Shown here: in pieces, positions 1,329-14,073 of the stretch
Layout: every line of letters starts with the position of its first letter
How positions within the stretch are numbered: the stretch's first letter is position 1
Source: Candidatus Amesbacteria bacterium
GTDB lineage: Bacteria; Patescibacteriota; Microgenomatia; CAZETR01; Amesbacteraceae
Reading direction: 5' to 3'
Assembly (NCBI GenBank): GCA_030681075.1
Contig: JAUXUE010000076.1
Location: 1-14,073 of the forward strand
Length of the DNA stretch: 14,073 nt
Translations under genes and position numbers: made by a program
The notes under the pieces: model-generated
The model's database searches: none
What the model was told of the DNA's origin: nothing
Seen by the model: the letters and a program-made list of their open reading frames with translations, nothing else

Positions 1329-1334
1329 TAAAAT
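1329..1334 (+). promoter_or_regulatory. -10 element (TAAAAT), leaderless PMT gene
   Basis: TAAAAT (5/6 match to TATAAT) ends 6 bases before the ATG at 1341, placing transcription start at or next to the start codon. It begins one base after the stop codon of the preceding gene. The best -35 candidate, TTGGTG at 1303-1308, has a long 20-base spacer and is weak. Support comes mainly from the same arrangement at six other gene starts in this window. Confidence 0.5.
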
Positions 1335-1340
1335 AGTCCC

Positions 1341-2459
1341 ATGCTTGGATTAATAATTGCATTTACTTTAATCACGCGGCTTTGGAATCTACATCTTCCC
1401 ACTGAATATTATTTTGACGAAGTATATAACGCGTTTACTACTCAAGAGATTGTCAAAAATAATATTAAGGCTTATGAATGGTTTCACACATCCCCTGTCG
1501 TTGGCACTGCTTATGGTTGGACTCACCCACCACTGGCAAAGCTTATTTCAGCAATTGGCATTTTATTATTTGGTGATAATAGTTTTGGTTGGCGAGTAAG
1601 CGGCGCTGTTCTTGGTACTGGCGTAATTTACTTAACTTATTTGATTGCAAAAGAATTTATGACCAAGAAGTGGGCTTTGTTGGCAGCTTTATTTGCGAGC
1701 TTGGATGGATTAATTCTTGTCCAGTCACGAATCAACATGAATGATATTTATGCCTTATTTTTTATCTTATTAGTATTTTATTTTTTTGTTAAAAAGAGAC
1801 TTTTACTGTTGGCCATAAGCTTGGGAATGCTTTTGGCTACCAAATGGACGGGACTTTATGCCATTGCGATTTTCGGCTGGCGAAAGAATATAATCGGAGT
1901 TCTGATCGTGGTATTGGGAATCTACTTACTGTCGTATTCACATTATTTTTATCTGGGCGGGACTTGGCAAAATTTTATTGAGCTACAGAAACAAATGTGG
2001 TGGTACAATACCAATCTGACTGCCACTCACACTTATCAATCCTCCTGGTGGACTTGGCCCTTTAACCTTCGCTCTGTCTGGTATTATGTCAATTATCAAA
2101 TTGATCAGATTGCCAATATCTATGCTTTGGGTAATCCGATAATTTTTTGGGCTGGAATCCCGGCAGTTATATATGCATTATTTAAACGTCAATGGTTGAT
2201 AGTTATTGGTTACTTAGCCTTTTGGTTACCATGGGCCAGAGCCCCACGTATTATGTTTCTCTACCACTACTTACCCTCTGTCCCATTTATTTGTATGGCA
2301 ATAGCTTATTCGTTATCTCAAATCAAAAACAAATATTTAACTATTGGGATTTGTGGCTTGGTCATTGTGGCTTTTGTCTATTTTTATCCCCTCTGGACAG
2401 GTATTCCAATGCCCAAAGAATTTGTTAATCAGTATTTTTGGTTACCAGGATGGAAATAG
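1341..2459 (+). CDS. PMT-family (GT39) dolichyl/polyprenyl-phosphate-mannose-protein mannosyltransferase
   Basis: A 372-residue multi-pass membrane protein of GT-C fold. It should transfer mannose (or another hexose) from a polyprenyl-phosphate carrier to Ser/Thr of a secreted protein on the outer face of the membrane. Family marks: the catalytic acidic pair D26-E27 in the first external loop (YYFDEVY), H62-P63-P64 in WTHPPLAK, the DG..L.QSRI stretch with R130, KWTGLYA, and a late FLYHYLPSVPF segment. Bacterial PMTs are usually around 500 residues, so this is a short version lacking much of the C-terminal membrane region. The ATG at 1341 gives a natural hydrophobic N-terminus and sits 6 bases after a -10 box. 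Its last 10 bases overlap the next gene. The protein encoded just upstream is rich in Thr/Pro/Ser and is an obvious candidate acceptor; that link is inference. Confidence 0.85.
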   Translation: MLGLIIAFTLITRLWNLHLPTEYYFDEVYNAFTTQEIVKNNIKAYEWFHTSPVVGTAYGWTHPPLAKLISAIGILLFGDNSFGWRVSGAVLGTGVIYLTYLIAKEFMTKKWALLAALFASLDGLILVQSRINMNDIYALFFILLVFYFFVKKRLLLLAISLGMLLATKWTGLYAIAIFGWRKNIIGVLIVVLGIYLLSYSHYFYLGGTWQNFIELQKQMWWYNTNLTATHTYQSSWWTWPFNLRSVWYYVNYQIDQIANIYALGNPIIFWAGIPAVIYALFKRQWLIVIGYLAFWLPWARAPRIMFLYHYLPSVPFICMAIAYSLSQIKNKYLTIGICGLVIVAFVYFYPLWTGIPMPKEFVNQYFWLPGWK

Positions 2460-4099
2460 TTGCTATTGCCATCATTATCTCGACCATGGTCGCCACCTGG
2501 TCTTCTTTTTTGGTTTCATTAATATACAAAGACTTTCTCATCTGGCCTGCCATTATCAGTTTTTTAGTTGTATTTATTTTTTTAATTAAATATTTAAAAG
2601 TCCAAACCTCTGTGTCCTGGGTCCTGTTTTCTGTGACTATCCTTGGTTGGTCTGTTTATTTAATAAAACTCTTTTCACAAATGTTAGTTGAGACATCGGA
2701 GGGCATTTGGGCAGGTGGAAGCAATGTCTGGGGCGATTGGGCAGGACACATTGGCTATATAGCCAATTGGTTGTATGGAGCAAATTGGCCTCCCCAAAAT
2801 CCTTGGTATTCAGGAGTTCGTCTGGCCTACCCATTCCTTTTTGATTACACTTCTGCCATTCTTGCCAAAATTGGCTTATCAATTCCTTGGTCACTCCAAT
2901 TACCAGGTATTATCTTCGGTATTATTTTAGTTATTTTGATTTATACCTTAACTGTAAAACTGACCAAGAATAATGTGGCAGCAGTCCTGGCTATTAGTAT
3001 CTTTATGTTCTCAGGAGGACTTGGATTTATATACAAAGACACCAAAGAATTGACTCATTCATACGAACACAATATTCAATGGGTGAATTTTGTCATTTCC
3101 GAAATGGTTCCCCAGCGCGGAATATTGCTTGGTCTGACAGCAGCGCTTACCATTTTTATTCTCTGGGAGAGTCAATATTTTTTGTTAGCTGGAATTGTAG
3201 CCGGCCTTATCCCTTTTTTTCATGCTCATACATACCTTATGGTGATGTCAATTTCCGGAATATATTTTTTGTATAGACCGTCCAAAAAGTGGTTTGGTTT
3301 TTTTATTCCTGCAATTATTATGGCAATTCCTCAGTATTTATATTTCCTACCACAGACCAAAGGATTTATTAGATGGCTTCCGGGCTGGGCTGCCCATGTT
3401 CAAAACGACAATTGGCTCTGGTTCTGGTTTAAAAATATGGGGTTTATGCTTCCCCTATTGCCTATTGCCTGGTTCACTAGCTTTTTTAAAGAGCGTCGTC
3501 TCTTCTGGCTTTATCTTCCGTTTGTCATAATATTTATTGTCTGCAACCTCTGGATATTTCAGCCTTGGGAAAACGATAATTCCAAGATGTTACGCTATTG
3601 GTATTTAGGTTCAGCTATTTTGGCGGGGTGGTATCTGACCAAAATACCAAAAATACTTGCTCTATTATTATTTGTCGGAATTATATATTCTGGTGCATAC
3701 GATGCCAAATCATGGCTCGATTTTGAAAAAAATAAACTGATGCTCTGGAGTAGGTCCGATATCGAATCTGCCGAATTTATCAAAGCCAATACTACTCGTG
3801 ACTCAATCTTTTTGACGAATGATAACCACAATCACTGGTTGGTAGATTTATCGGGACGAAAAATCGTCATGGGCTTTAGAGGTTGGCTGTGGTCTTGGGG
3901 TATCAACTATAGTGAACGGGAATCAGACGTCCGTAAGATATTTAATGGAAATTCGGAACTTCTGAAGAAATACTCTATTGATTATGTCTTGATCGGAGAA
4001 GGGGAAAAAAGCAATTTTGGAGCCAATGAAAAATATTTTGTAGATAAATACCCAGTATTATTGGACACTGGGTTTCAAAAAATCTTTGACGTAAGATGA
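2450..4099 (+). CDS. Multi-pass membrane protein, GT-C-like glycosyltransferase
   Basis: A 549-residue protein with about 10-12 hydrophobic segments through residue about 420, then a soluble C-terminal domain of about 130 residues. A loop after the first three membrane segments carries GDWAGHIGYIA (D96, H100). This acidic loop position, followed by NPWYSG and YPFLFDY, is typical of GT-C enzymes that use lipid-linked sugars. The tail (SDIESAEFIKANT, YSIDYVLIGEGE) resembles the terminal domain of many uncharacterised prokaryotic GT-C membrane proteins. I chose ATG 2450 over the TTG at 2438: it gives a clean hydrophobic start and a 10-base overlap with the PMT stop (ATGGAAATAG), a classic translational-coupling arrangement. 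An AGGA overlaps the start itself and is too close to be a normal ribosome site. The two genes are surely one operon. Sugar donor and acceptor cannot be told. Its 3' end overlaps the convergent LCP gene by 42 bases. Confidence 0.7.
   Translation: MEIVAIAIIISTMVATWSSFLVSLIYKDFLIWPAIISFLVVFIFLIKYLKVQTSVSWVLFSVTILGWSVYLIKLFSQMLVETSEGIWAGGSNVWGDWAGHIGYIANWLYGANWPPQNPWYSGVRLAYPFLFDYTSAILAKIGLSIPWSLQLPGIIFGIILVILIYTLTVKLTKNNVAAVLAISIFMFSGGLGFIYKDTKELTHSYEHNIQWVNFVISEMVPQRGILLGLTAALTIFILWESQYFLLAGIVAGLIPFFHAHTYLMVMSISGIYFLYRPSKKWFGFFIPAIIMAIPQYLYFLPQTKGFIRWLPGWAAHVQNDNWLWFWFKNMGFMLPLLPIAWFTSFFKERRLFWLYLPFVIIFIVCNLWIFQPWENDNSKMLRYWYLGSAILAGWYLTKIPKILALLLFVGIIYSGAYDAKSWLDFEKNKLMLWSRSDIESAEFIKANTTRDSIFLTNDNHNHWLVDLSGRKIVMGFRGWLWSWGINYSERESDVRKIFNGNSELLKKYSIDYVLIGEGEKSNFGANEKYFVDKYPVLLDTGFQKIFDVR
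4051..4072. terminator. Possible weak bidirectional hairpin at the GT-C/LCP convergent junction
   Basis: CCCAGT (4051-4056) and ACTGGG (4067-4072) form a 6-base-pair stem with a 10-base loop. It lies at the 3' overlap of the two convergent genes and is followed by T-rich sequence on both strands. The stem is short, both tails are interrupted, and it lies within coding sequence, so it may be chance. Confidence 0.25.
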
Positions 4100-5059
4100 G
4101 ATCTTGGAGAAATCGTCCCCAACAGGCATTAATACCCATTGAGAATCAACCAATGCGAGAGGATTGTATACAAGTGTCGAAATGTTAGTAGTACGAACGG
4201 GGGTTTTATATACACCTAAGCCAAGCTTGATTACTGCCGGAACCAAGTCAGGTGATATATCAGAAAGCGTAAGCTTACGGGCAAGGCTTTGTAACTCAAT
4301 TATTTTTAATGGATTTTGGATTATTTTTTCTCTTACAGCTTTCATGACTTGTTCCTGGCGAATACTCCTTGCAAAGTCAGACCCTTCATCGTTTTCGGAA
4401 TTACGAGACCTGGCAAATTTTAAGGCAGTCGAACCAGACATAGATTGTATTCCAGCATCAAATTTTATAATTTCGTACCGGCAGGATTCACAGGGGTCAT
4501 TTTCTTTTCCGGCAATGGGATAGAGCTTATCTTCAAAAGAATTCAAGACATTTATTTCTACCCCACCTATCACATCAATCAGTTTTTCAAATCCCGAAAA
4601 ATCTATTTTAGCCGCATAATGAATGGGTATACCCAGGACTTCAGACACGGTCGATTTGGCCAAAATAAACCCTCCACCTGCTTGTTTTTCTTCACCGTAA
4701 TAATACATGGTATTTATTTTTGCCTTGAGGCTTTGGATCCACAAATCACGGGGAATAGTAATGACTGCGACATCAGGCGGTTCAGACCGGACTGACACCA
4801 CAGCCATGGTATCGGTAAGATCAGCTCCTGTATGACTACCTCCACCCACACCCATGACCAAAAAATTGGTTCTGTCATCAGACACGGGGAGCTTGATTTG
4901 AGAGAGCTTCCAGGCTGATTTGGTAAATCCGAACGCTGGCATAAACAAGTATCTAATACCCAAAAGTAATATTACTAGGCTTATTATTATAAATACCCCC
5001 CGTTTTAGATAAACTCGGGATAATAACTGCCGTTTGATACGGTTATAATTGACATCCAT
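4058..5059 (-). CDS. LytR-CpsA-Psr (LCP) family glycopolymer-peptidoglycan phosphotransferase
   Basis: A 333-residue protein with a short cytoplasmic N-terminus, one membrane helix (about 22-39) and an extracytoplasmic LCP domain. LCP enzymes move polyprenyl-phosphate-linked glycopolymers (teichoic-acid-like or capsular) onto peptidoglycan. Visible family residues: NFLVMGVGG, TDTMAVVSV (D83), IPRDLW (R104-D105), K..IN, DVIGGVEI, and ALKFARSR (R217, R219) followed by SDFARSIRQEQ (D228, R231, R234). An extra loop between these carries DPCESC (C190, C193). The start is ATG 5059, complementary to the palindrome CCATGG; an earlier TTG at 5086 would only add a non-hydrophobic stretch inside the helicase gene. 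A -10-like TAGAAT lies 7 bases upstream. The gene converges on the GT-C gene, suggesting both serve envelope polysaccharide assembly. The LCP domain and phosphotransferase class are clear; the polymer is unknown. Confidence 0.92.
   Translation of the reverse strand: MDVNYNRIKRQLLSRVYLKRGVFIIISLVILLLGIRYLFMPAFGFTKSAWKLSQIKLPVSDDRTNFLVMGVGGGSHTGADLTDTMAVVSVRSEPPDVAVITIPRDLWIQSLKAKINTMYYYGEEKQAGGGFILAKSTVSEVLGIPIHYAAKIDFSGFEKLIDVIGGVEINVLNSFEDKLYPIAGKENDPCESCRYEIIKFDAGIQSMSGSTALKFARSRNSENDEGSDFARSIRQEQVMKAVREKIIQNPLKIIELQSLARKLTLSDISPDLVPAVIKLGLGVYKTPVRTTNISTLVYNPLALVDSQWVLMPVGDDFSKISSYVKDFLKPSVQ
5044..5049 (+). promoter_or_regulatory. -10 element (TATAAT) for the UvrD-like helicase gene
   Basis: A perfect TATAAT ends 8 bases before the ATG at 5058, implying a leaderless or near-leaderless transcript. 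It lies wholly inside the first codons of the divergent LCP gene. No good -35 hexamer is seen at 16-18 bases. Confidence 0.6.
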
Positions 5060-6878
5060 GGATACTATTCTACAGGGCTTGAACAAGGCTCAACAAGAGG
5101 CGGTTTGTTTTGCCGATACACCTTTGCTTATTTTGGCAGGGGCTGGCTCTGGAAAAACCAAAGTTTTGACTCACCGAGTGGCATATTTTATAAAAAACGG
5201 TGTTTCACCCGAAAACACATTGCTCCTAACGTTTACTAACAAGGCTTCTGAAGAGATGATAAAAAGAGTAAAAATTCTGACTGGAAGCGCTAATGTTTCT
5301 GGCGGAACTTACCATAGTTTTGGAGCCAAAATATTACGAAAGTATCACCATTACTTAGACCTAAGCCCAGATTTTACAATTTTTGACACTGACGATCAGA
5401 TGGATACCATGAAACAAGCCTTTGCCAATCTAGGGATTGACCCAAAAACCACCAAAATTTCTTCTGTCCTGGGCACAATATCCAGTGCTAAAAATGAGCT
5501 TATTAGCGCCTCTGAATATATTAATTATGCCAGAGGGCAGTTTCAGGAATTGGTGGCGAGGTGTTATTTGGCTTATCAGCAATTATTAAAGAAGTATCAC
5601 GCCTTGGATTTTGATGATTTATTGGTCAAAACAGTTGAATTGTTAAATAATCCGGAAGTTTTGAATAAGCTTAATGAGATTTTTACCCATATTTTAGTGG
5701 ACGAATATCAAGATACCAACAAAGCTCAGTTTCAAATAACCAAGTTGCTAGCCAAAAAAGATCAACACCTGACGGTCGTAGGTGACTTTAGTCAGGCAAT
5801 TTACAGCTGGAGAGGTGCTGATTACCGCAATATGTTGCTTCTCAAGCAAGACTTTCCTAATCTCAAAACGATAAATCTCGAGCAAAATTATCGATCGACC
5901 CAAAATATTTTGGATGCCGCCAACAACGTTATATCCAAAAACAAAAATCATCCAATTCTTTCATTGTGGACTGAAAAGTCTGATGGTTCAAAAATAGTTT
6001 TGTATGAAGCAGATAACGAATGGCGTGAAGCTGAATATATTGCTGAAAATATCACGATATTTTCTGACGCTGCGGTTCTATATCGAACTAACGCCCAATC
6101 GCGGGTTATTGAAGAAACTTTTTTACAGAAGAATATTCCTTATGTTCTTATCGGTGGAACACGTTTTTATGAACGCAAGGAAATAAAAGATGTCTTGTGC
6201 TATTTGCGTTTACTAATCCATCCCGGCGATGAAGTTTCAGCAAAGCGCGCTGAAAAAATTGGGAAAATGCGGCTAAACCAACTTCTAATCTCTAATATCC
6301 AATTTCTAGATAAGCCAACTCTAGAGGTACTGGAAAATGTTCTGAGAGTCACGAAGTATCTAGAGTTATATGATGTTGATGATCCCGAGGACGCGGGTAG
6401 ATTAGAAAATATCAAAGAATTGTATTCTGTAGCCAGTCTCCATCCAAACCTCAATGAATTTCTAGAAAAGATTGCTTTGACCGAGAAAGAATCCAAAAAA
6501 ACTCACACGTCAGAAAAGGGTTATGTGACACTTATGACCATGCACGCAGCCAAAGGACTCGAGTTTAAGCATGTCTTTATTGTGGGCCTAGAGGAAGGAT
6601 TGTTCCCCCATTCACGGACATTGTTGGATCCAACCGAGATGGAAGAAGAAAGACGCCTTGCTTATGTGGGAATTACCCGAGCAATGGACAAGCTTTATCT
6701 GACTTATGCCAGATCTAGAATGTGGTTTGGCCAAAGAAATTCAAATACCATATCTCGTTTTGTTTCTGATATCCCAGAAAGTTTGTTAGAAACAAGCAGT
6801 CTGCCTACGCCAAGGCTACGGCAAGATAAATGGGGTTTTGACGAATCAGGCAACTGGCAATGGAAACCAGAGGACTAA
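5058..6878 (+). CDS. UvrD/PcrA/Rep-like superfamily 1A DNA helicase
   Basis: A 606-residue ATP-dependent 3'-5' DNA helicase acting in repair and replication-fork processing. All SF1A motifs appear in order: Q motif LNKAQQEAV (8-16), Walker A AGAGSGKT (27-34), Ia LLTFTNKASEEM, Ic TYHSFG, motif II DEYQDT (215-220), motif III GDFSQAIYSWRGAD, motif IV LEQNYRST, motif V TMHAAKGLEF with GLEEGLFP, and motif VI RRLAYVGITRA (532-542). It is shorter than typical PcrA/UvrD (about 720-750 residues): the 2B region looks reduced and the C-terminal extension is missing. Motif III reads GDFSQ where GDDDQ is usual. ATG 5058 places the Q motif at the usual distance from the N-terminus; the TTG at 5049 is less likely. 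It starts back to back with LCP and ends overlapping the next convergent gene by 4 bases. Whether it is the UvrD, PcrA or Rep ortholog cannot be decided here. Confidence 0.93.
   Translation: MDTILQGLNKAQQEAVCFADTPLLILAGAGSGKTKVLTHRVAYFIKNGVSPENTLLLTFTNKASEEMIKRVKILTGSANVSGGTYHSFGAKILRKYHHYLDLSPDFTIFDTDDQMDTMKQAFANLGIDPKTTKISSVLGTISSAKNELISASEYINYARGQFQELVARCYLAYQQLLKKYHALDFDDLLVKTVELLNNPEVLNKLNEIFTHILVDEYQDTNKAQFQITKLLAKKDQHLTVVGDFSQAIYSWRGADYRNMLLLKQDFPNLKTINLEQNYRSTQNILDAANNVISKNKNHPILSLWTEKSDGSKIVLYEADNEWREAEYIAENITIFSDAAVLYRTNAQSRVIEETFLQKNIPYVLIGGTRFYERKEIKDVLCYLRLLIHPGDEVSAKRAEKIGKMRLNQLLISNIQFLDKPTLEVLENVLRVTKYLELYDVDDPEDAGRLENIKELYSVASLHPNLNEFLEKIALTEKESKKTHTSEKGYVTLMTMHAAKGLEFKHVFIVGLEEGLFPHSRTLLDPTEMEEERRLAYVGITRAMDKLYLTYARSRMWFGQRNSNTISRFVSDIPESLLETSSLPTPRLRQDKWGFDESGNWQWKPED
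5067..5072 (-). promoter_or_regulatory. -10 element (TAGAAT) for the LCP gene
   Basis: On the minus strand TAGAAT (5/6 to consensus) ends 7 bases before the LCP ATG at 5059. TTGTTG (5096-5091) stands 18 bases upstream as a moderate -35 (3/6). The whole promoter lies inside the first codons of the divergent helicase gene, mirroring the promoter at 5044-5049. Confidence 0.5.
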
Positions 6879-7450
6879 CCTTGTTTCTTAAATTCCATAC
6901 GCTTCTTAAATAGATTTTCCCTAAATCCGCCCTTTTCAATATAACTTTTCTGAATTCCAGCCAAGAAACGATCCATTAGAAAACTTTCTTTTGTACAAAG
7001 TGTGACCATAAGATTAGCAAATGCTTCCTTATCTCCAAAGTCAATCCCATTAGACTCATGTGCCCCATGAGTAACATGGGTCTCATGCGTATCTACACGA
7101 ATTCCTCGTAAACGAAGCACCCGCGGGTCATCCTTTTCCCAAAGTTTCAGTCCATTTTTCCAAAGAAAATCTTTATAGTCCTCAATTAATTCACCAAAGC
7201 TGGCTCGGGAAACACCTGTTAGTTTCAAATTACTTTCGGCCGAATTCTCCAATGACCCCTCAACTAGATTCTGTTTACAACTCCGCGCAGCCTGAATCAT
7301 TTGATCAAATGTTCGCGAAAATTTATCGACGTAACGCTCACAAAATATTGTATTTAAATTGAATATCTCTACTGCCAACCAATAAACCAGTGTATTCTCT
7401 ATTCCTCCGTTCATTTTGCTCATGAGACCCATTAGACCCATGGTTCTCAT
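6875..7450 (-). CDS. Four-helix-bundle 'suffix'-domain protein (S23/IVS-related)
   Basis: Up to 191 residues. The core has the marks of the four-helix-bundle family related to proteins encoded in 23S rRNA intervening sequences: YWLAVEIF, FCERY, then DQMIQAARSCKQNLVEG (49-65), followed by SRASFGELIEDYKDFL. Its molecular role is unknown; here it stands alone, not inside an rRNA gene. Five in-frame ATGs (7450, 7441, 7432, 7423, 7414) lie exactly 9 bases apart, giving M-R-T, M-G-L, M-G-L, M-S-K, M-N-G. The start is therefore ambiguous; 7450 is favoured because TATTAT ends 6 bases upstream of it, but translation from 7414 would keep the whole conserved domain. A second 9-base repeat array inside the gene inserts a His-rich stretch (H122, 125, 128, 131) between helices. 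The TAG stop overlaps the helicase TAA in the sequence CTAA. Confidence 0.8.
   Translation of the reverse strand: MRTMGLMGLMSKMNGGIENTLVYWLAVEIFNLNTIFCERYVDKFSRTFDQMIQAARSCKQNLVEGSLENSAESNLKLTGVSRASFGELIEDYKDFLWKNGLKLWEKDDPRVLRLRGIRVDTHETHVTHGAHESNGIDFGDKEAFANLMVTLCTKESFLMDRFLAGIQKSYIEKGGFRENLFKKRMEFKKQG
7052..7087 (-). repeat. 9-base tandem repeat (x4) encoding H-E-T/H-V-T/H-G-A/H-E-S
   Basis: On the minus strand CAT recurs every 9 bases (CATGAGACC, CATGTTACT, CATGGGGCA, CATGAGTCT). It is in frame and inserts a His-rich linker in the four-helix-bundle protein. The unit ATGAGACCC is the reverse complement of GGGTCTCAT and matches the array at 7412-7450 in a different reading frame. Confidence 0.8.
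7412..7450 (-). repeat. 9-base tandem repeat (x4-5) at the 5' end of the four-helix-bundle gene
   Basis: On the minus strand ATG recurs every 9 bases: ATGAGAACC, ATGGGTCTA, ATGGGTCTC, ATGAGCAAA, then ATGAACGG. It supplies five alternative in-frame start codons. The units belong to the same ATGGGTCTC/ATGAGACCC family as the internal array at 7052-7087, shifted by one base of reading frame. Confidence 0.8.
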
Positions 7451-7456
7451 TACTTA

Positions 7457-7462
7457 ATAATA
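7457..7462 (-). promoter_or_regulatory. -10 element (TATTAT) for the four-helix-bundle gene
   Basis: TATTAT on the minus strand (5/6) ends 6 bases before ATG 7450. ATGACT (7486-7481; 4/6 to TTGACA) lies 18 bases upstream and overlaps the start codon of the divergent FemAB gene. This predicts a leaderless transcript beginning at the first of five possible ATGs. Confidence 0.5.
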
Positions 7463-7472
7463 CATCAGATTG

Positions 7473-7478
7473 TATAAT
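7473..7478 (+). promoter_or_regulatory. -10 element (TATAAT) for the FemAB operon
   Basis: A perfect TATAAT ends 6 bases before ATG 7485, implying a leaderless mRNA. There is no convincing -35 (TTACTT at 7450-7455 is poor). The divergent -10 at 7457-7462 is only 10 bases away, so the two polymerases could not bind at once. Confidence 0.6.
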
Positions 7479-7484
7479 CTAGTC

Positions 7485-8375
7485 ATGAGTCATCCATTAC
7501 AATCCAACGAATGGGGTGAGTTTAGAGCCGAAAATGGTAATCTAGTGACAAGGGTCAATGGCTTTCAGATCATCTGGAGCAAAATACCCCATACTCCATA
7601 TTACTTTGGAACATTATTAAAAAGTGAGATTCCATCTAAAATCGATCTAGATAAATTTAAAGAAGAGGCTAAAAAAATAAATGGCATTGGTATTAGGATG
7701 GAACCAAATGCCCAAAACGGAATACTTCCTGATGGATTAGTCAAAGGTAGACGGTTCTTTACTCCCCAAACTTTTTGGCTTGATTTGACTCAACCTGAAG
7801 AAGAACTTTTGAAAAATATGCACCCCAAGGCTAGATACAATATCAGAGTCGCTCAAAAGCACAAAGTTGTAATCAAAGAAAGCCATGATATAGAAGTTTT
7901 TTTGGTCTTAAATAATCTTACTCAAAAACGCCAAGGCTTCTTTGCTCACGATGAAAAATATTTTAGAAACATGTGGAAGCATCTTGGCGGGAAAATCGCA
8001 CATTCATTTGTGGCTGAATATGAAGACGAAGCTTTGGCAGCTTGGATTATATTCAAATATGAAGATAAAATATATTATCCGTACGGTGCTAGTTCCGATA
8101 AGTTTAGAAATGTCCAAGCTACCAGCCTTATGCTCTGGGAAACAGCTCTTTGGGGAAAGAAACAAGACTGTAAAATATATGATTTATGGGGAGTGGAAGA
8201 GGGCAAGGGCTTTACCAGATTCAAAGAGCAATTTGGCCCACTACTAATTACGTTTGTAGGCACATATGATTTGCCCATCAATCCAGCTTTATATTGGTTA
8301 TTTAGATTTATGGAATATTTAAGATGGCAGATCTTAGGCAGTCTCCGGCATTTGCGCGGTATCTTGGCACATTAG
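7485..8375 (+). CDS. FemAB/FemX-like peptidoglycan-bridge aminoacyltransferase
   Basis: A 296-residue cytoplasmic protein of the FemAB family (paired GNAT-like folds), which adds amino acids from aminoacyl-tRNA to the peptide side chain of lipid-linked peptidoglycan precursors. Marks: MSHPLQSNEWGEFR at the N-terminus (the usual S-x-x-W-G start), TFWLDLTQPEEELLKNMHPKARYNIR (basic substrate loop from about residue 112), then AAWIIFKYEDKIYYPYGASS, and at the end YDLWGVEEGKGFTRFKEQFG with FVGTYDL, the classic FemAB C-terminal signature. It lacks the coiled-coil insertion of staphylococcal FemA. ATG 7485 is preferred to the TTG at 7470 because the TTG lies across the -10 box and the conserved start follows the ATG. 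The last 52 bases overlap the second FemAB copy, so the two were probably co-translated. The amino acid added is unknown. Confidence 0.87.
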   Translation: MSHPLQSNEWGEFRAENGNLVTRVNGFQIIWSKIPHTPYYFGTLLKSEIPSKIDLDKFKEEAKKINGIGIRMEPNAQNGILPDGLVKGRRFFTPQTFWLDLTQPEEELLKNMHPKARYNIRVAQKHKVVIKESHDIEVFLVLNNLTQKRQGFFAHDEKYFRNMWKHLGGKIAHSFVAEYEDEALAAWIIFKYEDKIYYPYGASSDKFRNVQATSLMLWETALWGKKQDCKIYDLWGVEEGKGFTRFKEQFGPLLITFVGTYDLPINPALYWLFRFMEYLRWQILGSLRHLRGILAH

Positions 8376-9052
8376 GCTGGAAAGTGGAAAAAGGAATCTT
8401 CATTAGACCACTTTGGATTTTTGGTGCTCTGGCCAAAATCCAGCGGGGGGTTCTACCCGGCAATTGGAAAGCAATATTAAAAAAGCACCGTGTCTGGTAC
8501 TTTGAGATAAACTATTCGCCTTCAAAGACTTTACGTATTGATCTGACTCCTTCGGTCAAAAATATCTTTGCGCAATTTAAAAAAGACGCACGTTATGTAC
8601 TTCGTAAATTTCAAATTTCAAATTTCAAATTTCAAATTAACCGTTTTGATGATTTTTATACTATCTGGCAAAAATCAGCAAAACGTAAGGGGTTGTGGAT
8701 TCCAAAAGAAAAAGAATACTTCAATTTACTAAAGTGCTTTAAAAATAAATGTTTTTGTATAACTATAAATGATCAGGCTGGTGCACTTGTCTTGATACAC
8801 GATTCTATTGCATATTACTATTACGCAGGTGCGACCAAGGAGGGCGTCAAGCAAAACCTACCCTATTTGGTTGTCTGGAAATGTATGCAAGAAGCCAAAT
8901 AGAGAAAATGTAAGCGGTGGGATTTTGAAGGAATTTATGATTCCCGCTTCCCCAATAAAGACTGGCTGGGCTTCTCCCACTTCAAAAAGTCCTTCGGTGG
9001 CAGTGAAATCCTATTCCCAGGTGCAACTACTTCTTATCACAAAGCATTTTGA
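8324..9052 (+). pseudogene. Second FemAB-like transferase, interrupted by an in-frame TAG at 8900
   Basis: The intact part (8324-8902, 192 residues) begins MADLRQSPAFARYL, a typical FemAB N-terminus, and carries IDLTPSVKNIFAQFKKDARY, W.KSAKRKGLW and YYYYAGATKEGVKQNLPYLV. It stops at TAG 8900-8902 right after MQEAK. The same frame then continues without another stop for 49 codons: RKCKRWDFEGIYD, then DWLGFSHFKKSFGG and FPGATTSY, ending at TGA 9050-9052. This is exactly the missing FemAB C-terminal signature, in frame, so a single base change (for example AAG to TAG) explains it; no frameshift is needed. Options are a nonsense-inactivated copy, a truncated product, readthrough, or a base error in the sequence. 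A 7-base tandem repeat lies inside it. The tail overlaps the convergent helicase-nuclease gene by 26 bases. Confidence 0.8.
8606..8638 (+). repeat. 7-base tandem repeat (AAATTTC)x4.7 inside the second FemAB copy
   Basis: Four perfect AAATTTC units and a partial fifth encode KFQISNFKFQIN. The unit length is not a multiple of 3, so gain or loss of one unit would shift the frame. The repeat sits next to the conserved substrate-loop motif (FAQFKKDARYVLRK). Confidence 0.9.
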
Positions 9053-11693
9053 AGGCGCAGGAGGAGCAATAGAAGCCGGTGCAGCAGAAGTCACTGGATT
9101 GGATTTCGTCGCGAATCTTTAGGATTTGTTCTTTGGCTTTTTCGAGATCATTGGATGTACGTGTAGTTGATATAGCTTCACCTGTCTGGAGAAAATACAA
9201 GGTTAACTTTATTTTTGGACCAAGATTTAGGGCTTCAGCTGCCAGAGCATAAAACGATAACTGGAGGTTTTTGTCTACATCTTTTTGTTCTGCTGGTTTT
9301 CCTGTCTTATAATCGATTATCTCGACGGTCCCGTCCTCCCAGATATCTACTCTGTCCATTCTCCCAGTAATTTTTAAGTCATTGGTGATAGGAATCGAAA
9401 ATTGGTGCTCGGTATATTTTGGTTTGTGTTTTGAATATTTATCGTAAGCTAAATATTTGATTATCAGTTCCTCACCCAGTTTTTTTGTTTCCTTTCTTTG
9501 CTGAGGACTCATGAATCCGGCGTCGCGCCAGGATGTCCTATATGTTTCTAGTGGATTATCACTATTTAGAGCCTTATGAACCACAGTCCCAAGAGTCGTC
9601 ATAGAAGTAGCAGGCTCAGAAATACCCAAAATATATTTGGCTTTATAGTGCGCCGGACATTCTTCGAATGAAGTAATATGAGAATAAGATAAGTTATCTA
9701 TATGTAAAGTATGTATAGGATTGTCCGAAACCGAACGGAGTGAGGAGGGGTGATACTCGTTTTTTGATTCGGTAACACCTGTCTCACCAACAAAAATTGA
9801 AACCTTCTTTGCCCTCTTTGTTTCTCCATAATAATCGGAAGCAGTTAAATATAGTCTGGACTTGGCCCGGGTCATACCTACATAAAACAAACGACGTTCC
9901 TCTTGTAAGTGAAAGTCTAATTCTGGAAGTCGTTCTTTGATAAGAGATGTTGGAATCGGCAATTGCTCAGATCGGTTTCGGGATGGAAACCTATCCATAA
10001 CCAAGTTTGTCATAAAGACTGTCTCAAATTCCAAGCCTTTGGCAGAGTGAACAGTCAGAATATTGACCGCGTCATTTTGTCTCCAATCCGAATCGACACT
10101 GGCTTGGGGTGATTCTCCCATCTGCATATTCAGATCAATCCAATCGACTACTGTTCTGACTGATGCATCGCGTGAGTCCTCAAAGCTTTTGACACGCTTG
10201 AAAAATTTGGCAATGTTTTTGGCTTTATTATCATCTTCAATCGTCATTAATATTTTAGTCTCTACCAAGAAATCATAGAGAATTTGGCCAGCACTGTTAT
10301 TACTCGATTTTTGTATAGCGGATTTTAGAAACGAAATTGCACTTAGATCAAGATCGCTACATATTTCAAACAAAGTTTTACCAGTATGCCTGGTTTTGGC
10401 AAACAAATCAGCTAAGTAGTTATTATCTATTTGCCAAATGTCCATTGCCAGTACCCGATAGAGTGAAATGTCATCATCCGGATTATCAATTGCGCGTAAT
10501 ATGGCAATTAAATCTTTAATTTCAGGTTGGACAAAAAGTTGGGCTGGGCCCAAGAACTGGACTGGTACTCCTGCCCGCTCTAGTGCTTTCACAAATGGCT
10601 CTGCTTGAGAATTAGAGCGAACGAGAATGGCGTGATCTTTAAAATTATTATGTATTTGACTAGTAATCCAATCAGCTTCATCCTCCCCGCGCGAAAACTT
10701 CTGAAAAACTACTTCTCCTTCTGGTCTGCCTGGCAATGCTACCAGCTTTTTATCAATACTGGCTTTTATTTCCAAGCGGTCAGGATTGTTATGGCTAATT
10801 AATTTATAAGCTGCGTCCAAGATTTTTTGCCCGCTTCTGTAATTTTGAGTCAACACTACAGTCTTGACATCTTTGTAGGTATCAAAGAATGACAAGACAT
10901 TACCGACAGCTGCCCCACGAAACCGGTACACAGCCTGGTCATCGTCGGCCACGACATTAATATTGCGGTGCTTTGATGCCAGAATCTCCAAGATTTTGTT
11001 TTGAGCATAGTTGGTATCCTGATATTCATCTACCAAGATATATTTAAAGTTCTCTTGATATTTTTTGGCAATTTGAGGACGATTGATTAATATATGAAGT
11101 GTGTAATAAATTAAGTCTGCAAATTCCATCACCGAATTATCAGCCTTAATCTGTTCCCACGATTTATATAAGTTTGCCAATTCAATATCATTTGGTTCTT
11201 TTACAAATTTAATGTAATCATCAGGCGTAACGTCCTCATCCTTCAATCTGGAAAAATGTTTTAGAATCGCTTCGATAAACCTATGGGGATTACCAAGGGG
11301 GCGATAATAGTCCAAATTAAATTTGTAAATATTTTTCTTAAACAGAGCGACAGCGTCTACTTCTGTCAGTAAATCAAATTCAAAGTCGATTCCAATATTT
11401 ATTCCCTCATCTCTCAAAAATTGCTCGCAAAAAGAGTGAAAGGTGCCGATAAACATTTTGGAATAGCCGAGGGGCATGACTTCATCTAGGCGGTCTTGCA
11501 TTTCGGTAGCTGCTTTCTCTGTAAATGTCAGAGCCAGTATTTCATTTGGCAAGGCCTGTCCGCTTGATAGTAAATATTTTATTCTTTCCGTAATAACGGT
11601 CGTTTTTCCCGTTCCTGCACCGGCAATAACCAATAGCGGACCAGATTGGTGTTTAATAGCTTCGAGCTGTTGGGGATTAAGAGTTTTATTCAT
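9027..11693 (-). CDS. UvrD-type helicase fused to a RecB/Cas4-like PD-(D/E)XK nuclease with Fe-S cysteines
   Basis: An 888-residue helicase-nuclease of the AdnA/AddB-like class, expected to unwind and resect DNA ends for recombinational repair. Helicase motifs: Walker A AGAGTGKT (24-31), LTFTEKAATEM, GTFHSF, motif II DEYQDT (222-227), ADDDQAVYRFRGA, TQNYRSG, TVHSAKGLEFETVF, and EERRLFYVGMTRAK. The C-terminal nuclease has ITSFEECPAHYKAKY (C679), GTVVHKAL (H706), GRMDRVD (D780), IIDYKTGK (D794, K796) and Q811-x3-Y815. The last residues form C876-x2-C879-x5-C885. Together with C679 this is the four-cysteine 'iron staple' of Cas4, AddB and AdnA/B nucleases. All catalytic residues are present in both halves, so the protein looks active. 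Start ATG 11693; unlike its neighbours, the nearest -10 (TATTAT) is 15 bases upstream. A partner subunit, needed by AddAB and AdnAB, is not visible; the other UvrD gene in the window lacks a nuclease. Confidence 0.92.
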   Translation of the reverse strand: MNKTLNPQQLEAIKHQSGPLLVIAGAGTGKTTVITERIKYLLSSGQALPNEILALTFTEKAATEMQDRLDEVMPLGYSKMFIGTFHSFCEQFLRDEGINIGIDFEFDLLTEVDAVALFKKNIYKFNLDYYRPLGNPHRFIEAILKHFSRLKDEDVTPDDYIKFVKEPNDIELANLYKSWEQIKADNSVMEFADLIYYTLHILINRPQIAKKYQENFKYILVDEYQDTNYAQNKILEILASKHRNINVVADDDQAVYRFRGAAVGNVLSFFDTYKDVKTVVLTQNYRSGQKILDAAYKLISHNNPDRLEIKASIDKKLVALPGRPEGEVVFQKFSRGEDEADWITSQIHNNFKDHAILVRSNSQAEPFVKALERAGVPVQFLGPAQLFVQPEIKDLIAILRAIDNPDDDISLYRVLAMDIWQIDNNYLADLFAKTRHTGKTLFEICSDLDLSAISFLKSAIQKSSNNSAGQILYDFLVETKILMTIEDDNKAKNIAKFFKRVKSFEDSRDASVRTVVDWIDLNMQMGESPQASVDSDWRQNDAVNILTVHSAKGLEFETVFMTNLVMDRFPSRNRSEQLPIPTSLIKERLPELDFHLQEERRLFYVGMTRAKSRLYLTASDYYGETKRAKKVSIFVGETGVTESKNEYHPSSLRSVSDNPIHTLHIDNLSYSHITSFEECPAHYKAKYILGISEPATSMTTLGTVVHKALNSDNPLETYRTSWRDAGFMSPQQRKETKKLGEELIIKYLAYDKYSKHKPKYTEHQFSIPITNDLKITGRMDRVDIWEDGTVEIIDYKTGKPAEQKDVDKNLQLSFYALAAEALNLGPKIKLTLYFLQTGEAISTTRTSNDLEKAKEQILKIRDEIQSSDFCCTGFYCSSCAFKMLCDKK

Positions 11694-11740
11694 AAGGGTA
11701 CATACCTAATAATATGGGTACAGTCCTTTCATTTTACTAC

Positions 11741-11769
11741 TTGACAGTCTACTCCGTACCGTCTTTAAT
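11741..11769 (+). promoter_or_regulatory. Sigma-70-type promoter (TTGACA-N17-TTTAAT), leaderless
   Basis: A perfect -35 TTGACA (11741-11746) and a -10 TTTAAT (11764-11769, 5/6) are separated by the ideal 17 bases. The -10 ends 6 bases before the ATG at 11776, so the transcript should start at or beside the start codon. This is the best promoter in the window and anchors the reading of the other -10 boxes. Confidence 0.75.
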
Positions 11770-11775
11770 TATATC

Positions 11776-13806
11776 ATGAAATATTCGGAACTTGTGCAAA
11801 AGATTGGTATTGGATTATCGTTGGTTTTTGTCTTTTTATTTCCCCTGTGGTTTCTGCCTATTACTTCGGACTTCTATGAATTTAACAAGCAAATTTTACT
11901 GATTGGCACTTCATTGGTCTTACTCTTGGTTCTGAGCTTACATTGGGTCATGGAGAAACAAGTCAAAATTCTCCGTACTCCTTTGGGACTTCCGGTATTA
12001 GCTTTGGCAGTGTCAGTTTTGCTTTCGACAGTTCTGCGCAGCCCAAATAAAATAGAGGCTCTTATAGATCCCGCTCAGACCGGTACTATTCTGGCGGGGT
12101 TAGTACTATTTTTTGCGGTCAGCAATTTGTTTAAAACCAAGCAGGAAATTTCTCTATTGGTGACTACATTCTTCGCCTCGTCTCTTGCAATATCGACCCT
12201 GGGCTTACTCTGGGGATCTGGAATTATTCTCAAGATACTTCCTGAATCGATGAATTTTACCAAATCCGTCATCTGGTCACCCACCGGAGCTTCACTAAAC
12301 TCTATTGTATATCTCGTAGTTTCGCTGGTTATGGCCGCTGTCATATTAATAAGAAACAAATGGACAGGAACTGCCAGTGTCTTACCAGCAGCAGTTGTGT
12401 CTGTAAATTTAGTTACTATTGTATTGACTGGATATCTTATCTTTGCACCCCAATCAGCCTATAAACCAACTTTTCTACCCCAATCAACAGGTTGGGCAAT
12501 AGCCCTCGAAGTCCTGAAAAGCTCACCCATTCTTGGATCAGGACCTGCAAGTTTCTTGTCTGATTTTACCCAGTTTAGACCAATCATTTTTAACCTGACA
12601 CCAAATTGGGCTGTCCGCTTTACTTCGAGTAGTAATCAATATCTGCAAATGTTGACAGTTACTGGTTTCTTGGGATTTGTAGCTTATCTGTATTGGTTAG
12701 TAAGACAAGTCCAAATGTTTGTCAAATCATTTGCTTCCAAAGAATTTTTACCTTTGGCTGTAGGTTCGGCCATGATTGCATTAATGTTTGTCCAGATCTG
12801 GCTTCCCCTGACTACAGTGACGTTTGGGCTTATGTTTATACTAACAGCCATGTTGGTATTGGCCCATCGTCAGGCGGGATTATCGACTGTCCATGAATCT
12901 ACTTTGGATATAGTCGCTACTACATCTACCGGCCACTCACCTATTTTTCCTTGGGCAATATTACTATTAGTCTTATTGGTCTTTGTACCCAGTGTCTATT
13001 TGGTTTCAAGAGCTTATGGCGCAGAAATACTATTTCAAAAATCCCTTGTCGCAGCATCAGCCAATGATGGCAAAAAGACCTACGACACCCTTATTGCAAC
13101 TGTCCAGATGAACCCATATCGCGATACCTACAGAGTTGCTTATTCGCAGACAAATATGCTGATAGCCAATACTCTTGCCAGCAACAAGGATATTTCCGAT
13201 GCCGATCGAAATACCGTCACTCAGCTAGTCCAGCAGGCTATCCGCGAGGCCAAAAATGCCGTCGCCTTGAATCCCACCAAAGTAACCAATGTTGAAAATC
13301 TGGCATCTATCTATCGCAATCTTTTGAACTTTGCCCAAGGTGCTGACGCCTGGACCACGGCGTCATACCAACAAGCCGTAGCGCTTGATCCCATCAATCC
13401 CAATCTCCGGATTGCCTTGGGTGGCGTTTATTTTGCTCAGAAGAATTTTGATGAAGCTGTCCGTTTGTTTCAAACTGCGGTAGACCTTAAGCCCGATCTA
13501 GCCAACGCACATTATAATCTTGCTGCAGCCCTTCGCGAAAAAGGTCAATACGAAAAAGCCTTGGCTAGTCTAGATCAAGTGTTACAGCTTATTTCTGACA
13601 AAAATTCTGAAGATTATACCAAGGCATCAGAAGAAGCTGACGAGTTGCGCAAAAAAGTGACTTCTAAAGAAGAAGCTAAAAAGACAAACACTCCCTCTCA
13701 ATTGACAAGCCCCGAATCAGCCCTACCTAAACCAAAGATTGTTCCTCCCATCAAAGTTTCGGAAGCGCTAGCCCCTGAAGCTCCATCCACTCCATCCGCA
13801 CAATAA
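11776..13806 (+). CDS. O-antigen ligase/polymerase-like (WaaL/Wzy) membrane protein with C-terminal TPR domain
   Basis: A 676-residue protein with roughly 10-12 membrane segments up to about residue 420, then a soluble TPR region and a disordered Pro/Ser/Ala tail (about 640-676). Residues about 247-300 carry the O-antigen-ligase core: SSPILGSGPASFLSDF, then SSSNQYLQMLTVTGFLGFVAYL, matching the G-x-G and N-x-(Y/F)-L...G-x-x-G pattern of Wzy_C proteins. The His usually just before the Asn is not there (SSSNQY). Such enzymes join undecaprenyl-linked glycans to an acceptor on the outer face of the membrane. TPR helices are clear from about 526: WTTASYQQAVALDP, then FAQKNFDEAVRLFQTAVDLKPDLANAHYNLAAALREKGQYEKALASL. 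They probably bind a partner protein. Fits the envelope-glycan theme of the PMT, GT-C and LCP genes. ATG 11776 is set by the promoter 6 bases upstream. Acceptor and polymer are unknown. Confidence 0.82.
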   Translation: MKYSELVQKIGIGLSLVFVFLFPLWFLPITSDFYEFNKQILLIGTSLVLLLVLSLHWVMEKQVKILRTPLGLPVLALAVSVLLSTVLRSPNKIEALIDPAQTGTILAGLVLFFAVSNLFKTKQEISLLVTTFFASSLAISTLGLLWGSGIILKILPESMNFTKSVIWSPTGASLNSIVYLVVSLVMAAVILIRNKWTGTASVLPAAVVSVNLVTIVLTGYLIFAPQSAYKPTFLPQSTGWAIALEVLKSSPILGSGPASFLSDFTQFRPIIFNLTPNWAVRFTSSSNQYLQMLTVTGFLGFVAYLYWLVRQVQMFVKSFASKEFLPLAVGSAMIALMFVQIWLPLTTVTFGLMFILTAMLVLAHRQAGLSTVHESTLDIVATTSTGHSPIFPWAILLLVLLVFVPSVYLVSRAYGAEILFQKSLVAASANDGKKTYDTLIATVQMNPYRDTYRVAYSQTNMLIANTLASNKDISDADRNTVTQLVQQAIREAKNAVALNPTKVTNVENLASIYRNLLNFAQGADAWTTASYQQAVALDPINPNLRIALGGVYFAQKNFDEAVRLFQTAVDLKPDLANAHYNLAAALREKGQYEKALASLDQVLQLISDKNSEDYTKASEEADELRKKVTSKEEAKKTNTPSQLTSPESALPKPKIVPPIKVSEALAPEAPSTPSAQ

Positions 13807-13843
13807 TACCTCACCCCCCACGGCCCCCCATTTACCTCACCCC
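13807..13843 (+). repeat. C-rich spacer with 11-base direct repeat (TACCTCACCCC)
   Basis: TACCTCACCCC occurs at 13807-13817 and again at 13833-13843, with a very C-rich stretch between. It directly precedes the hairpin at 13844-13873. This short non-coding stretch is unlike the AT-rich DNA around it and may be part of a mobile or dispersed repeat unit with the hairpin. Confidence 0.6.
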
Positions 13844-13873
13844 TACCCCTCTCCTGATTTTAGGAGAGGGGTA
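13844..13873 (+). terminator. Perfect 12-base-pair hairpin (CCCCTCTCCT/AGGAGAGGGG)
   Basis: TACCCCTCTCCT (13844-13855) pairs perfectly with AGGAGAGGGGTA (13862-13873) across a 6-base loop GATTTT. It lies 37 bases after the stop of the TPR gene and could terminate it. However, it is followed by TAATTTATAT, not a clean U tract, and its right arm overlaps the -10 box of the next gene. A dispersed palindromic element is an alternative reading. Confidence 0.55.
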
Positions 13874-13877
13874 TAAT
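13872..13877 (+). promoter_or_regulatory. -10 element (TATAAT) for the DUF559 gene
   Basis: A perfect TATAAT ends 6 bases before ATG 13884. Its first two bases are the end of the hairpin's right arm, and the place of a -35 box is taken by the hairpin itself (CTCTCC), so no -35 is present. Confidence 0.55.
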
Positions 13878-13883
13878 TTATAT

Positions 13884-14073
13884 ATGAAAAGTATTTTTCA
13901 CAAAGTATTAAATACAAATCGAATGGTTGATAGGAGAAGAGATTTGAGATCTAAATCAACTCCAGCAGAAAATATACTTTGGCAACAATTAAGAAACAGC
14001 AAGCTTATATTTAGGTTTAAGAGACAATACAGCATAATGAACTATGTAGTTGATTTTTACTGTCATAAAGCAA
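13884..14073 (+). CDS. DUF559 (Vsr-like PD-(D/E)XK endonuclease fold) protein, 3' partial
   Basis: The first 63 codons are present and the right edge cuts the gene. The sequence shows the DUF559 N-terminal signature: LRSKSTPAENILWQQLRN (E29), FRFKRQYSI and MNYVVDFYC (D57). Full-length relatives are about 110-130 residues and have a fold like very-short-patch-repair endonucleases; E29 and D57 match the conserved acidic positions. The function of most members is unknown; DNA cleavage is inferred from the fold. It has its own promoter and an immediately upstream palindrome. Confidence 0.88.
   Translation, partial: MKSIFHKVLNTNRMVDRRRDLRSKSTPAENILWQQLRNSKLIFRFKRQYSIMNYVVDFYCHKA

Follow-up and report, generated by a model that had tools for sequence, protein, structure and literature searches.

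The closest described counterparts of the arrangement treated here are the TA-led genes, which, in the sections of Zheng et al. (2011, PMC3160421) that deal with them, carry a TANNNT/TATAAT signal whose first T lies about 12 bp 5' of the start codon, coexist with genes preceded by a Shine-Dalgarno (SD) sequence, and account on average for 39.4% of the genes in Deinococcus-Thermus and 19.2% in Actinobacteria, with other groups also represented; the Table 2 passage on these genes has no row for Patescibacteria. Leaderless genomes are also predicted by GeneMarkS-2, according to a passage of PMC9581028. SD-less initiation of another kind is described in PMC6847099 for Flavobacterium johnsoniae (an SD-less member of the Bacteroidota), whose mRNAs lack an SD and whose ribosomes keep the anti-SD. 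As for the Patescibacteria/CPR, the nearest remark found concerns YchF, which is known to promote the translation of leaderless mRNAs and is broadly conserved in the CPR genomes studied (PMC12641178), the passages in question claiming no leaderless genes in CPR; no report of such genes in Patescibacteria/CPR was found in the open-access literature as far as it was searched.

Boxes, starts and genes in the window

The DNA analyzed here is a stretch of 14,073 nt from Candidatus Amesbacteria (hereafter, the window), which is contig C85 of an assembly of 636,582 bases in 105 contigs, estimated as 90% complete. A preliminary description had proposed that seven of its genes start directly behind a -10 box, and printing the 60 bases before each start bore this out: all seven boxes were found at the positions and spacings given for them (Table 1), each agreeing with TATAAT in at least five of its six bases and ending 6-8 bases 5' of the ATG, as were the perfect TTGACA claimed 17 bp 5' of the box for 11776, the missing box (at 5-8 bases) of the two genes taken as internal (2450 and 8324), and the one departing start, 11693 on the minus strand, with its TATTAT at 15. 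The standing of 1341 as a leading start is less secure: its box is present, but a gene on the same strand ends at 1328, only 12 bases before it, so that by distance it is no operon head. Seven of the eight starts treated there as leading have a box, the probability of which is ~1e-9 at the genome's own background rate (a chance of ~0.04 per start), a post hoc value, since the starts had been picked by the author of that description; the window is, by this count, richer in boxes than the genome as a whole.

Table 1. Candidate promoter elements and associated genes in the window
Feature	Position	Strand	Remarks
-10 box TAAAAT	1329..1334	+	6 bases 5' of ATG 1341; PMT mannosyltransferase gene (Pfam PF02366/PF16192)
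Gene without box at 5-8	2450..4099	+	overlaps preceding gene by 10 bases; co-transcription expected
-10 box TATAAT	5044..5049	+	8 bases 5' of ATG 5058, UvrD helicase; within coding sequence of divergent LytR gene
CCATGG palindrome	5056..5061	.	start codons of two divergent genes overlap here by two bases
-10 box TAGAAT	5067..5072	-	7 bases 5' of ATG 5059 (minus), LytR-CpsA-Psr; within UvrD coding sequence
-10 box TATTAT	7457..7462	-	6 bases 5' of ATG 7450 (minus); weak 23S rRNA IVP match below Pfam cut-off
-10 box TATAAT	7473..7478	+	6 bases 5' of ATG 7485; FemAB
Second FemAB-like gene, without box at 5-8	8324..8902	+	overlaps preceding gene by 52 bases
UvrD/PD-(D/E)XK helicase-nuclease	9027..11693	-	leading gene, no near box; TATTAT at 15
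-35 TTGACA (perfect)	11741..11746	+	17 bp 5' of box for ATG 11776
-10 box TTTAAT	11764..11769	+	6 bases 5' of ATG 11776; Wzy_C/TPR protein
-10 box TATAAT	13872..13877	+	6 bases 5' of ATG 13884; DUF559, cut by window end

A Pfam search assigned the window proteins to families, with one protein left without a match. The protein encoded at positions 3-1328 is incomplete; it contains Thr-Pro-rich repeats as well as two Cys-rich ones, and its C-terminal end is hydrophobic. A TAG (8900-8902) ends the second FemAB-like gene, past which similarity runs on in the same frame to about 9025 (with one TAG inside), a frame that is open in the same-genus relative; the region 8324-9025 may represent a truncated copy or an error of the assembly.

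Position of the box across the genome

The genome was sampled as 50 readable contigs plus the window (51 contigs, 340,476 bases), in which a length-based gene caller, replacing an earlier codon-model one (251 genes, 74% coding), delineated 366 ORFs with 325 usable starts, the start being the first in-frame ATG, a rule that is blind to the box and by which some starts have surely been mis-chosen. A box was defined as TATAAT with at most one mismatch, the gap as the number of bases between box and ATG, and a start was counted as internal (169) when its gene followed a same-strand neighbor at a distance of 20 bases or less, and as leading (156) otherwise. A box at gap 6 precedes 37 of the 156 leading starts (23.7%; background ~1.35% per position, binomial p about 1e-34), and leaving the window out changes little (34/150, p about 1e-31). 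Widening the gap to 5-8 gives 59 boxed leading starts (38%) versus a mean of 8.7 in shifted controls, 31 of 72 divergent starts (43%), and 32 of the 169 internal ones (control mean 7.4). When all hexamers were counted by position, TATAAT at gap 6 ranked first in leading genes (14 versus 6 over 29 far positions), and when each gene's first four start codons were all considered, gap 6 was occupied in 69 of 328 genes (60 ATG, 6 GTG, 3 TTG), as compared with 7-32 genes at the other gaps between 0 and 29. The preliminary description had held that an alignment of genes across the genome should display a -10 peak; one is there, at -12 to -7, and the contrary outcome, no peak, did not occur.

That AT-rich intergenic DNA would always yield some TATAAT-like hexamer for a selective reader to find is an explanation to which both the AT-richness of the sequence and the one-mismatch threshold lend something, but the box is position-specific and rare at shifted positions, and E. 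coli K-12, given the same treatment, had no box peak (1/97 leading starts boxed, and 2/35 internal ones, both at gap 8), so that chance has a practically negligible probability. Nor do we think it at all likely that the boxes are promoters of leadered mRNAs whose real start codons lie further downstream, as a mechanical choice of starts might lead one to suspect: a wrong ATG would not lock at exactly 6 bases, a gap-6 box being found at 1.1% of 1,914 in-frame ATGs inside genes and at 0.4% of 3,143 out-of-frame ATGs, and in most of the relatives displayed the conserved LN motif of UvrD begins at most about ten residues from the start.

A lack of the box at internal genes, as claimed, is seen where a gene overlaps its predecessor by ATGA, only 1 of 48 such genes being boxed (versus 59/156 leading starts, Fisher p about 1e-7), but not at other close-following genes, 31 of 121 of which have a box; this is unexpected if the latter are purely internal and counts against a leaderless explanation. 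The preliminary description, which spoke of a rule for most operons, had the right kind of picture but overstated its reach: a near-consensus box precedes 38% of leading starts, or maybe half of them with a looser model, and 43% of divergent ones, and 97 of the 156 leading starts have none at gap 5-8. The looser motif, fitted by EM, gave 52% of leading and 61% of divergent starts, fractions that are themselves loose, as the divergent set reached 100% motif usage and the same seed moved away to a different motif in E. coli (14% at gap 5-9), and the model probably overfits. As for the 97 unboxed leading genes, their starts may have been wrongly chosen or may be GTG or TTG codons, their boxes may be weaker, or they may have short leaders with no SD; leadered SD-less initiation of the Bacteroidota type may operate at these starts. 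The base just 5' of the ATG in leading genes, boxed or not, is rarely G (4%) and commonly T (51%).

Promoter-like signals and the weak Shine-Dalgarno

In a logo of the 58 gap-6 genes, position -16 favors A or G, -15 favors T (48%) and -14 favors G (45%), while -35 to -33 lean toward a TTG-like sequence. Matches to TTGACA at four or more of its six places, counted before 91 boxed genes, number 16 at spacer 17, the other spacers between 10 and 25 having 0-10 each (10 at spacer 25), while TG at -15/-14 is present in 17 of the 91 boxed versus 21 of 234 unboxed genes; in three family members, whose boxed genes number 73, the TTGACA-like matches again peak at spacer 17-18 (10 and 9, other spacers 2-5). 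As judged from these motifs, the box signal is that of a promoter with a -35 at spacer 17 and an extended -10. In sigma-70 geometry, a hexamer at -12 to -7 puts the transcription start on the A of the ATG, and such a start is predicted here because the aligned boxes carry the -35 at 17 bp and the extended -10.

Short spacers between divergent genes (median 41 bases in 32 pairs here; 214 in 22 pairs in E. coli stretches), down to two genes sharing one CATG, fit leaderless starts. The start codons of the UvrD and LytR genes overlap within the CCATGG palindrome, and therefore each -10 box lies within the first codons of the other gene. The best lineage-named relatives of this UvrD are three Candidatus Amesbacteria sequences with 61-62% identity (one partial locus titled only "bacterium" reaches 66%), which makes the source most likely a member of the Microgenomates/CPR near Candidatus Amesbacteria, and near-zero UvrD/LytR spacing is kept in three Amesbacteria relatives, the candidate starts having the same two-base overlap in one (L100) and three bases between them in the other two (L101 and L102); the divergent boxes have no match at one mismatch and gap 5-8 in L101 and L102.

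The preliminary description had also stated that the boxed starts have no SD, and no SD excess was indeed found before them, anti-SD pairing of -6 kcal/mol or stronger occurring at 4 of 59 boxed leading genes and in 6 of 59 control stretches; genome-wide, though, the SD is weak and not nil, the pattern GGAGG-N4-9-ATG exceeding its reversed control (70 versus 47). Leading genes have no excess of GGAG/GAGG/AGGA at -18 to -4 (10, control 13), and internal ones have a slight one (16, control 10); pairing energies give a small excess for unboxed internal genes (23 versus 14 of 137) and 13 versus 10 of 97 for unboxed leading genes. E. coli K-12, given the same treatment, has a clear SD at its leading starts (48 of 97, control 9). 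Initiation by a strong SD was ruled out for this genome. SD initiation may still serve some genes, as the 16S tail has a canonical anti-SD, and S1, IF3 and S21 are all present: each of these proteins was matched in all 13 genomes searched for it, the own genome included, where the S1 match comprises four domains within a single 385-residue frame (below the curated cut-off were one IF3 match and three S21 matches, all of them in other genomes). The 16S rRNA gene of the own genome has a group I intron match (62 bits; L001 1335-1543 minus, contig C3) shortly 5' of its 3' end and anti-SD.

The weak SD is also what would be expected if the AT-rich hexamer were a translational signal within a leader, as in the SD-less Bacteroidota, and no promoter at all, and the elevated frequency of A at -2 to -4 before internal starts (45-48%), along with the boxes at some close-following genes, points the same way. 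The -35 at 17 bp and the TG at -15/-14, however, fit a promoter, and the ATGA-coupled genes, presumably translated and not separately transcribed, should not lack a translational signal as they do; we regard this alternative as quite unlikely. With high, if not complete, confidence we take the boxes to be sigma-70-type -10 elements giving leaderless mRNAs translated by direct recognition of the 5' AUG. An ordinary -10 of this type would here direct transcription to start at the A of the ATG or no more than about three bases away from it, the mRNA would begin with, or almost with, 5'-AUG, and the ribosome would recognize that AUG directly, with no need of an SD, whereas the ATGA-overlap genes within operons would probably start by reinitiation. 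The DNA itself shows that the -10 is position-locked, extended and partnered by a -35 at 17 bp, that the SD is weak, and that the arrangement recurs in relatives, and it is from these features that we infer the exact transcription start and leaderless ribosome entry.

Recurrence in relatives and place among known systems

Three genomes of the same family, pooled, have 47 of 210 leading starts boxed (control 10.9), with an excess in each and a box at only 3 of 43 ATGA-overlap genes, and five genomes of the same class have 40 of 144 (control 7.0), with an excess in all five. Beyond the class, six of the eight genomes analyzed have an excess (a further one, G068, represented only by two pieces shorter than 2 kb, was left out), and none was seen in the sampled stretches of G089 (1/9) and G141 (1/16). 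In a pattern count over 286 genomes of the phylum, the own one included, gap 6 scored 7,358, gap 12 2,801 and the reversed pattern 2,988; gap 6 was higher than gap 12 in 263 genomes, lower in 15 and equal in 8, and higher than the reversed pattern in 258, lower in 20 (e.g., G089, 16 versus 52) and equal in 8. All 24 genomes comprising the own one and its class have gap 6 above both, and the difference from gap 12 reaches p < 0.01 in 18 of these 24 and in 126 of the other 262. Among 25 named genomes, the 12 CPR ones gave 370 versus 121, and the 13 others (seven Bacilli among them) 552 versus 540, one of these, G321 (titled Nitrospirae), having 16 versus 4. By these counts, the box arrangement appears widespread in the phylum.

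The SD pattern GGAGG-N4-9-ATG, summed over 24 of the 286 genomes (the own, one family member and 22 of the class), scored 3,917 versus 2,682. A clear SD is found in G126, G184 and G258 of another family, f24, where box and SD coexist; within the phylum sample, the f24 genomes G126, G173, G258 and G266 rank among those most strongly enriched at gap 6 (G126, 124 versus 9).

At the level of single genes, the box stands 6-7 bases 5' of a candidate start in 10 of 12 FemAB orthologs (the own included; 9 of the 11 others in the family), and its spacing is kept as the candidate start shifts by up to 10 codons; these 12 were examined out of 28 matches, of which a further one was truncated by the end of its contig and 15 were set aside as weak or paralogous, with at most three candidate starts displayed for each. 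Against this stand the UvrD orthologs: only 7 of the 18 loci examined (out of 80; 16 with CPR-type names and two titled only "bacterium") have a box at gap 5-7 when one mismatch is allowed.

A broader proposition, to which we give somewhat less than even credence, is that leaderless initiation is standard and ancestral across the Patescibacteria/CPR and that in this family it took over, together with ATGA reinitiation, most of the work of the SD despite the presence of the anti-SD, S1, IF3 and S21. Should RNA evidence bear out leaderless starts, many genes would begin in this way across a large section of the bacterial world that is known mostly through metagenomes. This would bear on gene-start annotation where an SD is assumed, on the expression of CPR genes in other hosts, and on ideas about the age of leaderless initiation in bacteria.

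Set against the known systems, the genome resembles the TA-led class, as the sections cited above (PMC3160421) describe it, in its genome-wide gap-6 peak with the first T at -12, and differs from it in a fuller TATAAT with an extended -10, a small CPR genome and a weak SD. Flavobacterium johnsoniae (PMC6847099), whose mRNAs lack an SD, likewise keeps the anti-SD, but initiation there is tuned by mRNA structure and nearby bases, whereas here the start codon has a putative promoter at a fixed distance from it. To the known class of leaderless bacterial genes this would add a large branch of bacteria not described for it as far as searched, with an unusually weak SD.
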